Assembly: GCF_900496995.4 (NCBI RefSeq)
Contig: NC_044012.1
Location: 25,396,759 to 25,460,758, forward strand
Source: Aquila chrysaetos chrysaetos
Taxonomy: Eukaryota; Chordata; Aves; Accipitriformes; Accipitridae
Length of the DNA: 64,000 nucleotides
Reading direction: 5' to 3'
Shown here piece after piece: positions 55,338-59,210 of the stretch (its first letter is position 1; each line of letters begins with the position of its first letter). The notes below the pieces were generated by a model. It made no database searches and was not told where the DNA came from. It saw only the letters and a program-made list of their open reading frames with translations. The position numbers and the translations under genes were made by a program.

Positions 55338-58300
55338 TTAGCGCAGGGGGCTTGGCTCGGCAGCGGGCATGGTGTGCAGGACCTCGTCCAGCAGCTGCAG
55401 GGCACGATGGAGGTGCACCTCGATCCAGCATGGCGTGTGCTTGATGCTCTGCCGGGGGTAGTCAGGCCCCCAGCCCTTGACGAAGCTCAGCCGCAGGATA
55501 CACAACCGCCGCAGGTCATCCACACCGATCCCTGCTGCTGCTGAAAGCCCTGGCCAGGAGGGACACGGCCGTGGGTGGGGGATCCCCATGGCCATGAGGG
55601 TACTATCCTCCCCACTTGGCCCAGCCCCAGGGGCTCGCTCACTCACCCACGGCGGGTGCGATGCCTCCCACTGAGCCGGGACCTGGGATGTTGCCGGCTA
55701 CAGCAGCAGCCTGAGCGGCAGCTGCAGCCTGGGCCGTGGCCGCTTGCTGCTGCATCTGGCGGTGGCACTGGCGCAGGTCAAATACCTGAGTGCAATATGG
55801 AGTGAACCCCTCAGCAGGGCAGCATGGGAGGGTGATGCCCTGGGGACCCCTTTCAGCATAGGCACAGGGGTCCCTCCATCCCCAGAGTTCCTCCACTGCC
55901 CTCCAGCATGGGGGACCCTTTGCCTGGGACCCCCTTTAACATGGACTCAGGGAGTCCCTCCATCCCTGGTGCCCCTCCTTCCTGGGATGCAAGGTCCCCC
56001 CCTTCCCTCTGGGGATGCTCCACCTTGATGTAGGCACCGGGGTATATCTTGTGCACAGCGTCCCCGGGGGCTCTCCCAGCTTCCCGGTCCAAGTAGTAGC
56101 TCTGCACGAAGACGGCGTGGTCGCTCAGGCACCGCATCCACACGTCGCCCTCGCCCCGGCACTCCAGCTGCACGCCCTTCCCGATGTGCAGCCTGTCCCG
56201 CAGAGACCGTCAGCACCGGCACACCCCTGGAGCATCCCCCGGCTGCCCCCAAAATCCCCCAGTAGCCTCCTATATCCCCCCATCTGCTCTGTACATCCCT
56301 CATTTGCCCTCTATATCCCCCTTCTGTCCCGTACATTACCCATTTCCCTCCCTATATCCCCCCACTCTGCCCCATCATCCTCCAGTTGCCCCCCATAAGC
56401 CCCCACCTGCCCTGTATATCCATTTGCCCTCTACATCCCCCTTCCACCCCATCATCCCCCAGCTGCCCCCTGTATCACCCTTCTGCTCCGTACATCACCC
56501 CTGCACCCCCATACACCCTTTTGTCCCCCACCTCCCACCCCCACATTGCCCTCCCCATTTACCCCATCCGTTCCTTCATCCCCCATCCATGCCTGCATCC
56601 CCCAGCTACCTCCCCCTCCTTTTCCCCCCATCCTGCCCCACACCTACCCTCCAACCCCCCACCCTGACATTGCCCTGTCCCCCCCTCTGCCCCCCCCACC
56701 CCACCGGGCCCGCTCGCTGGCGTCGGTGCGGTGCACATTGGAGAGCTGCCCCAGGCAGAAGCGGTCCCCCCCCCGAGGGGTCCACGTAACCGTCCACGAT
56801 GACCACAGGGCAGCTGGATGGCACCTTGAAGATCTCCCCCACCTGCACATCCATCTCAAAGTAGGTGATGGAGCACCAAAACTCTGGCCCTGGAGGGGGA
56901 ACACACATGGTGATGGGGCGGTCAGTGCACCCATAGCTCATGGAGGGGGTGATCACTGGGGTGCTAATTAGGGTGGGGGGCACTTACCCGGGTGGGTAGA
57001 CACTGGTTGCTGGTACGGCCCGGAGCTATGGTGTGGGGGCCCTGGGGAGGGGGCAGAGATGGGGTCAGTGCAGCGAGGGGGTGAGGACGCTGCAGATGAA
57101 CCCCAGCCCCCCATTCCCCCCCAAACCTACAGTAGTGGTTGGGGTGGTGGAATGGGGGCTGCGGATGGTTCTGGCTGCTGGGCTGCGGCCCCCCCAGGCT
57201 CGGTGCATAGACAGCTGCACCAGTCCAGCTTGTCGGTGAACCTGGGGCAGGAAAGAGGGTGGCCGGGTGGGGGTGTCCCCATGCGAGACCCTTGCTGAGC
57301 CAGGGGACATGTGGTGTCCCTGGTACTCACTGTGGTAGGGCAGCTTGGGGTAGCCGTTCTGCAGGGGGGGCTGCGCCAGGGCGACCGGGGGCGGTGTGGG
57401 GCAGGCGATCTGCAGCAGCCCCTCGCCGTGGGGCAGTGAGAGCAGGGAGCTGCCAGGGGCCACTGTGGGGGACACACACGGTGGGGGGGGGGGTGCCAAG
57501 TCAAACCCCCCCAAACCCTTCCTCAGGGATGCGGACAGGGGTTTAACAGGGTCTTACCTGGGGGTGACATGGGCAGCGCAGGGTAGAGGCTCCTGGGGAC
57601 ATGGGGGGACTCAGGGAGCTGCAGGGGGGGCAGCGGCTGGCGGTATGGCTCAGCAGGGGGCAGATGCGGCGCCCGCTTGGCCCCCTGCTCCCGGCCGGGC
57701 GGCACCTCCATCTGCACACAGTCATGGACAAACTCCTCCTTCACCAGGCGCGTGGGGGGCACTGGGGAGCGGGGGGGACACACACCGGAGACCATGGGGG
57801 GCACAGGGACCCACTGTGGGGAGGGGATGCTGGCTCCGGGGGTGCTCCCCGCCGGCCCTGTGCCAGGGTCTCACCTGTGCTCTGGATGCTCAGACCTGCC
57901 AGGGAGAGATGGGGGGGGGGGGGGTGTTACGGGTGCTGGTGACAGAAGTGGGATGCCCCCCCCCCCCCCCGCAACCCGCGGGGGGTCCCGGCGGTGGGAC
58001 TGGCTCACCGATGGTGGGGGCCACCACGCGCTCGTAGTGGTAAGGGTTGACGCAGACGCTGTCGTACTTGAGGTCGAAGGCAAATTGGCAGAATTTGATG
58101 TGTTTCAGCTCGTTTTTGTGTAGGTCGGGCCAGCGCCAGAGCCTGGCATAGATGACGTGGGGGAACCCCTTCCTGCCAGCCACCTGCGGGGTGGGGGGAC
58201 AGAACAGGGACACTGAGGCAATGGGGTGGGTGTGTGGGCATAGTCCCTCCCCACCTCCCAGGCTGACTGCATCCAGCTCAGATACCGGACCTCCCCAGCA

Positions 58301-59198
58301 TCCCTCCCCCTGCCAGCGCAAAGGCTGGCGCCAGGCCGGGACCCCATGGCGGCCAGGGGACTCCCCCTGCGCGTCCCCGGCTCCAGACATAACAACCCCC
58401 GCCCCCCCCCCTCCGCTCCGGCCTCCCGGGCTGCCAGACAGTGACTCATCCTGGGAAGGAGGGGCAGAGTCGTCGGGGGATGCCAGCGCCGAGAGGGGGG
58501 ACGACTGCGGGCAGGGGGCAACACTGCCTGCGGCTGCTCCTGCCTGGATGCATCTGACCTGGTGGGGTGGGGACTTCTGCCTGTCCCTGTCCCCCCATGT
58601 CCGGTGCAGCCGTGGCCCCGTGGCACCCGTGGTGGGTGGGTGTGAGCCCAGACACTTAAGTCAGCGTGGCTCCCAGCTCAGAGCCGCAGGGTCAATGTGG
58701 CTGGGGTCCCCCTGCGTGCCCCTCCTGGGGAAGGGGGGTTCCCTCTGCCAGGCCCCCTGCCTGGGTCCCCCCAGCTCGAGGAGGGTTGGGGAGTCTCAGG
58801 GGCCATGGGGCACCCCAACACTCAGGTCCCCCCAGCTCAGGGAGGGCTGTGGGGTCTTGGGGGTCATTGGGCACCCCGAGGTCCCCCCAGCTCAGGGACG
58901 GCTGTGAGGCGCAGGGCTGCCGAGGCACCCAGGCACCTAGGTCCCAGTGCGGCAGGGTTACCTGGAGCCGCCCGTCCAAGGTGCGCTGGATGGTGACGCA
59001 CTTGCTGGGGTGGGCACCGTTGGTGGTGATGGCGGCGATGAGCGAGTCAAGCTCGTCCTTCTTCTCCTTGAGCTTCTTGACGAGGCTCTCGATGGCCCGC
59101 TTGGCAAAGGTCTCGTTCTCCCCGCCCTGCCGGTGGCACATCAGGCTGTGCACGATGCTCAGGCAGGCGTCGCTGCTCGTGGGCGCGCCGAGGGACAT
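55338..59198 (-). CDS. SMAD4 paralogue (common-mediator Smad, SMAD4-like)
   Basis: Co-Smad-like protein, expected to trimerise with receptor-phosphorylated Smads and bind GTCT/GC-rich DNA in TGF-beta/BMP signalling. Coding exons: 58962-59198, 58009-58183, 57875-57895, 57558-57761, 57331-57462, 57131-57241, 56988-57041, 56705-56889, 56024-56192, 55647-55785, 55338-55549. The 11-exon plan and lengths mirror SMAD4; protein 545 aa (human 552) if one surplus base is discounted. MH1 ~10-137: [22 protein letters not shown] hairpin [14 protein letters not shown], zinc ligands kept ([22 protein letters not shown]). The linker is diverged and Pro-rich but keeps GLLQIA and NHYWP. MH2 ~312-545: [29 protein letters not shown], and the Co-Smad-specific Gln/Ala insert [21 protein letters not shown] is absent, as in Co-Smads. 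Exon 56705-56889 has a 9-G run one base too long for the frame. Not SMAD4 itself: the linker and many MH2 residues differ and the locus is SNAPIN-CHTOP. Confidence 0.9.
56220..56690 (+). repeat. pyrimidine-rich degenerate repeat in a SMAD4-like intron
   Basis: Almost the entire intron 56193-56704 is C/T-rich units such as CCCCCAGCTGCCCCCTGTATC and CTGCCCTGTATATCC, roughly 20-30 bp and degenerate. Confidence 0.6.
56766..56774 (-). other. surplus base in the MH2 exon of the SMAD4-like gene
   Basis: The minus strand reads GACCCCTC followed by nine G and then ACCGCTTC. SMAD4 homology ([12 protein letters not shown]) requires eight. With eight, all 11 exons join in one frame; with nine, the frame changes after PSGG. 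The run is a homopolymer, so a sequencing error is the simplest reading. Confidence 0.8.
57875..57895 (-). other. 21-nt micro-exon of the SMAD4-like gene
   Basis: Flanked by CTGGCAG and GTGAGACC; codes GLSIQST across phase-1 junctions and aligns with the human SMAD4 linker segment SGLTLQSN. Easily missed by gene predictors. Confidence 0.85.
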
Positions 59199-59210
59199 TG
59201 CGCTGCTCCC
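59199..59210 (-). other. 5' UTR part of the SMAD4-like first coding exon
   Basis: A splice acceptor CTTGCAG ends at 59211, leaving 12 untranslated bases before the ATG (GCGCAATGT, G at -3). The coding start corresponds to Met4 of human SMAD4, and the upstream exon must be noncoding. Confidence 0.7.

Follow-up and report, generated by a model that had tools for sequence, protein, structure and literature searches.

A second Co-Smad gene of the golden eagle, probably separated from SMAD4 since before the living jawed vertebrates

Amniotes are often taken to have a single Co-Smad, SMAD4. A second Co-Smad gene is already in print and is widely annotated by NCBI, Aquila included, and it is hardly studied. 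For Xenopus tropicalis, the accessible text of Huminiecki (2009; PMC2657120) describes an extra Co-Smad that groups with fish genes, is a possible 2R product and was "lost in other vertebrates"; a diverged extra Co-Smad in opossum is described in the same text. Flounder has four SMAD4 genes, and the extra copies are read as teleost duplications in the accessible portion of PMC5045880. Among birds, a "SMAD4-like" gene is placed on chicken chromosome 25 in the available part of "Recurrent DCC gene losses during bird evolution" (2017; PMC5327424). A literature search, which touched SMAD6-like little, found no paper devoted to the bird gene, called SMAD4L here.

The locus analyzed lies in a 64-kb stretch of golden eagle DNA (1-64000, the window). 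It can be regarded with good confidence as SMAD4L – a second Co-Smad that, judging from its sequence, would have split from SMAD4 before the jawed vertebrates, belongs with amphibian smad4.2, and has an altered linker and export segment. Two aspects are new here: the shortened export segment in SMAD4L, and a third inhibitory Smad (I-Smad) linked to the gene 1.6 Mb away.

Exon tracing in the window recovered 11 coding exons of a Co-Smad gene on the minus strand (55338-59198; Table 1), running from ATG to stop with GT-AG borders. An eleven-exon Co-Smad between SNAPIN and CHTOP had been proposed in a preliminary description of the region. The exons are indeed of the SMAD4 type, with AG acceptors and GT donors, and both flanking genes were found by Pfam. 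The gene extends past the range first given for it (55338..59210), to a 5' exon. CpG o/e reaches up to 0.85 around this exon, which is likely promoter and 5' UTR. Further along the window are the domains DZF_C, ANF_receptor and Ints3_N (INTS3), with seven of eight fragments matched in Pfam; the one unmatched fragment of the eight is a second supposed INTS3 fragment. The DZF_C and ANF_receptor fragments are presumably ILF2 and NPR1, and the human gene order is presumably the same.

Table 1. Features of the SMAD4L locus, in positions of the 64-kb window
Feature	Position	Strand	Description
SNAPIN exon (neighbour)	54062..54175	-	Pfam PF14712
Coding exon 11	55338..55549	-	212 nt; MH2 end and stop codon; SMAD4 homology
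Coding exon 10	55647..55785	-	139 nt; Co-Smad Gln/Ala insert of MH2
Coding exon 9	56024..56192	-	169 nt; MH2
Coding exon 8	56705..56889	-	185 nt; MH2 start; frameshift inside
Homopolymer G9 (C9 on +)	56766-56774		+1 shift relative to conserved reading frame
Coding exon 7	56988..57041	-	54 nt; linker
Coding exon 6	57131..57241	-	111 nt; linker
Coding exon 5	57331..57462	-	132 nt; linker
Coding exon 4	57558..57761	-	204 nt; linker; contains QPLPPLQL
Coding exon 3	57875..57895	-	21 nt; homologous eagle SMAD4 exon reads as 30 nt
Coding exon 2	58009..58183	-	175 nt; MH1 second half
Coding exon 1	58962..59198	-	237 nt; start codon, MH1 first half
5' exon	61881..62306	-	matches N-terminal extension of annotated Aquila protein P0008
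CHTOP exon (neighbour)	63653..63826	-	Pfam PF13865

Joined across the frameshift, the encoded protein matches the Pfam models of MH1 (E 1.1e-40) and MH2 (E 2.8e-70). Its identity to human SMAD4 is 94% in MH1, 38% in the linker and 91% in MH2, which bears out the initial impression of conserved MH domains around a rewritten linker. The corresponding values against a shark SMAD4L (Scyliorhinus) are 97%, 51% and 94%. The protein keeps C71, C115, C127, H132, R81, Q83 and K88 in MH1, presumably including the zinc and DNA-contact positions, and D351, R361, W524 and D537 in MH2. The Gln/Ala insert in exon 10 matches that of human SMAD4, known from solved structures, exactly as far as GGIAPA and departs from it only in its final two residues, which lie at the exon border. 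The C-terminus reads AAEPSPLR, without the SSXS receptor phosphorylation motif. Twelve MH1 and MH2 positions split SMAD4 from SMAD4L (at least 90% in each clade), and at every one of these the eagle protein is in the SMAD4L state. MH1, MH2 and the insert had all been described as intact – this is correct for MH1 and the insert but not for MH2, where the frame is broken in exon 8.

The search for relatives scored 7,980 candidates and gave 2,469 proteins at E <= 0.001, of which the best 120 were examined. The named relatives among these 120 of 2,469 come from birds, turtles, a crocodilian, lizards, amphibians, lungfish, coelacanth, ray-finned fish, sharks and rays; mammals are not among the named rows of the same 120 (some rows are unnamed). 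SMAD4L is apparently missing from mammals, in agreement with the available part of the 2017 DCC paper (PMC5327424). P0008, the annotated protein of Aquila, matches the window model at 100% identity over the 87% aligned; it has an N-terminal extension and stops after exon 10. Another relative, P0001 (557 aa, 97% identical), is encoded on a contig of 2,940 bases. At the 5' junction it reads AGSSAM where the unspliced window DNA reads QGSSAM, and for this reason P0001 is probably the spliced transcript of a close relative. A close relative of the gene thus seems to be transcribed and spliced, and other sauropsids conserve the gene.

For a large tree, 77 proteins were chosen from 240 listed and joined with the window and human SMAD4, for a total of 79 rows. 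The 45 SMAD4L and 34 SMAD4 rows fall on opposite sides of one branch with an SH-aLRT of 100. The same split was found in a tree of MH1 and MH2 only (38 rows, 31 of them different), with support of 100/100 and in 200 of 200 bootstrap trees. Two bird SMAD4 sequences have identical MH rows in this smaller tree. The window groups with the SMAD4-like proteins of frogs, reptiles, fish and sharks and not with vertebrate SMAD4; the frog proteins are those of four frogs, with Xenopus smad4.2 itself outside the tree, and no row among the best 120 relatives bears its name. Sharks, ray-finned fish, amphibians, reptiles and birds are present on both sides of the split. With sharks on both sides, the duplication predates the living jawed vertebrates, given the inferred position of the root in these trees, which hold SMAD4 and SMAD4L rows alone. 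Many inner branches of the large tree are weak, and some deep SMAD4L branches depart from the species tree. Fast rows are misplaced in it: the SMAD4 rows of two galliforms fall among those of ray-finned fish.

These results agree with the preliminary description, in which the gene was an old paralogue that could be the orthologue of amphibian Smad4.2. Its age is supported by the split with sharks on both sides and by relatives that range from sharks to birds. Its orthology to Smad4.2 is supported by the four other frogs in the tree and by the accessible portions of Huminiecki (2009; PMC2657120) and the 2017 DCC paper (PMC5327424).

If the locus were a copy of bird SMAD4, either recent or misassembled, its closeness to SMAD4 in MH1 and MH2 would be accounted for, but this reading can be given virtually no probability. 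Forcing the window to join all 17 SMAD4 rows of the 38-row MH1 and MH2 tree was rejected (AU p = 0.0056), so a place inside bird SMAD4 is not where the protein falls; moreover, SMAD4 is found elsewhere in the same assembly (C37:85.45-85.46 Mb), the linker is only 38% identical to that of human SMAD4, and relatives of the same clade exist in sharks and fish. The trees, the AU value and the separate SMAD4 together exclude a copy. The broken frame in exon 8 raises a different alternative – that golden eagle SMAD4L is a very recent pseudogene, made by a real insertion of one base. The conserved frame calls for 8 G at the point where the assembly has G9, and the run separates the 10- and 11-residue halves of a conserved MH2 segment into different frames. 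Because of this the literal SMAD4L frame meets stops, and there is no Co-Smad open reading frame across exon 8 in this assembly. Yet this is the single lesion detected in 1,639 SMAD4L coding bases, and it sits in a homopolymer, in a window rich in long G/C runs. The annotated P0008, labelled LOW QUALITY, reads across the G9 run, and three other accipitrid proteins examined (P0025, P0037 and P0055) have the conserved frame at this site. A recent pseudogene is very unlikely on this evidence, and the frameshift is very probably a homopolymer indel of the assembly. The window contains many long G/C homopolymers, including one G run of 32 bases; they are a likely source of indels in the assembly.

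The two clades also differ in the linker. The core DLSGLT is present in 32 of the 34 SMAD4 rows and in none of the 45 SMAD4L rows. The two SMAD4 rows without it are Alligator, where the preceding stretch is missing, and Callorhinchus, which lacks or replaces the stretch. A short form such as IGLSIQ is found in 40 of the 45 SMAD4L rows, the exceptions being Larus, Pogoniulus, Gavialis, Spea and Latimeria. The segment of SMAD4 that is encoded in exon 3 and contains DLSGLT is presumably the nuclear export signal, and Xenopus Smad4-beta is reportedly more nuclear than Smad4-alpha. The SMAD4 linker holds an export signal according to the accessible part of PMC1459162. The inferred direction of the change is a loss in SMAD4L. 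A regular expression for export signals matched 20 of the 45 SMAD4L linkers and 2 of the 34 SMAD4 linkers; it is no test, because it missed human SMAD4, its positive control. In the window linker it gave a match of 11 residues, away from the exon 3 segment, and SMAD4L could be exported via another linker site.

Exon 4 contains a second linker motif, QPLPPLQL, which with its near variants occurs in 26 of the 45 SMAD4L rows and in 0 of the 34 SMAD4 rows. It is absent from frog, lizard, shark and ray rows, as well as from Anser, Gallus, Larus and Pleuronectes, though the Gallus isoform used has a gap at this position. Its absence from several SMAD4L lineages rules it out as a mark of the whole clade.

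A scan of the eagle genome for MH2 found SMAD4, SMAD2 and SMAD7 on C37, SMAD3 and SMAD6 on C5, and three R-Smads on C1, C19 and C22, with gene names inferred from position and sequence. It also found, 1.6 Mb from SMAD4L, an additional I-Smad at C9:27.045 Mb. This is an open three-exon gene (C9:27043865-27045754) for a protein of 347 aa with a PPPPY motif, and it is annotated as SMAD6-like in Aquila. Its relatives reach sharks (best 120 of 1,028). In a 31-row tree the extra I-Smad falls with SMAD6-like proteins, while eagle SMAD6 and SMAD7 group apart (100/99), together with "SMAD6b" of the ray Narcine. In this tree the SMAD6-like rows of sharks stand as a separate group, whose union with bony-vertebrate SMAD6L is root-dependent. 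The "SMAD6" of Xenopus laevis (P0343) falls with frog SMAD6-like and not with eagle SMAD6; results on X. laevis "SMAD6" may therefore not concern the orthologue of mammalian SMAD6. A weak extra MH1 match, outside the named eagle Smads, is located at C12:5548820-5549128 (E 3.8e-10).

Contig sizes were available for both SMAD4L and SMAD6L in 20 species. In 17 of these the two genes are on contigs of equal size, taken to be one and the same, or in 16 of 19 without Protopterus, whose contig size of 2,000,000,000 may be a capped value. In the other three, Gekko japonicus, Sphaerodactylus and Mustelus, one or both genes are on small scaffolds. The two genes are apparently linked within one contig in lineages from coelacanth to birds. 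Three linked blocks of Smad genes fit an origin in the genome duplications of early vertebrates; when PIAS genes (PF14324) were used to probe for a paralogon, the single match lay near SMAD3.

The proposed history begins when SMAD4L and SMAD4 part, earlier than the last common ancestor of jawed vertebrates, with the two early vertebrate genome duplications as the most likely cause. Since its MH1 and MH2 surfaces are kept, SMAD4L would be expected to join phosphorylated R-Smads and to bind Smad sites as SMAD4 does, a prediction made from conserved residues. With 9 nt fewer in exon 3 and the export motif gone, the protein would leave the nucleus less and be more nuclear at rest, and its activation segment would differ. 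A broader reading, with roughly even chances of being correct, is that SMAD4L and SMAD6L are a third ancestral block, beside SMAD2-SMAD7-SMAD4 and SMAD3-SMAD6, that was kept by sharks, lobe-fins, amphibians and sauropsids and lost by mammals, and that SMAD4L is a resident nuclear Co-Smad. Under this broader reading the textbook set of eight Smads would be a mammalian reduction, as the third block would have been lost in mammals.

SMAD4L could instead be a redundant or dosage back-up that matters in birds, where SMAD4 is Z-linked and its region is rearranged in galliforms and passerines. SMAD4, SMAD2 and SMAD7 lie together on contig C37 (gene names inferred), and the available text of PMC5327424 places the DCC-SMAD4 region on Z and raises as a question whether SMAD4-like could replace SMAD4. 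Faster evolution of SMAD4 in galliforms is reported in the accessible part of PMC5327406. A back-up role is rather doubtful, however: the MH domains of SMAD4L are strongly kept in sharks, turtles and lizards too, where the reason from the Z chromosome fails, and SMAD4 was detected in every galliform and passerine examined, according to the same portion of PMC5327406.

TGF-beta and BMP models in birds, turtles and lizards carry a second Co-Smad, which may compensate for SMAD4 or differ from it. The change of the export signal across a whole clade offers a direct test of the purpose of regulated Co-Smad export. Given the linked I-Smad, a part of the pathway made up of two genes may have been lost in mammals.

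Compared with SMAD4 itself, SMAD4L has MH1, MH2, the Co-Smad insert and the exon plan in common, and it differs in a linker with only 38% identity, an exon 3 that is 9 nt shorter and without DLSGLT, and the 12 separating MH positions. The gene in the window is the same as the avian SMAD4-like of PMC5327424, as far as the available text of that paper describes it, and as the NCBI "mothers against decapentaplegic homolog 4-like". That text raises SMAD4-like in its discussion, to which the present analysis adds the export signal and the linked I-Smad. The amphibian counterpart is Smad4-beta, also called Smad4.2 or Smad10: the SMAD4-like proteins of four frogs share a clade with the window, the Xenopus sequence being outside the tree. 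In the accessible text of Huminiecki (2009; PMC2657120) the amphibian gene was viewed as lost in other vertebrates.
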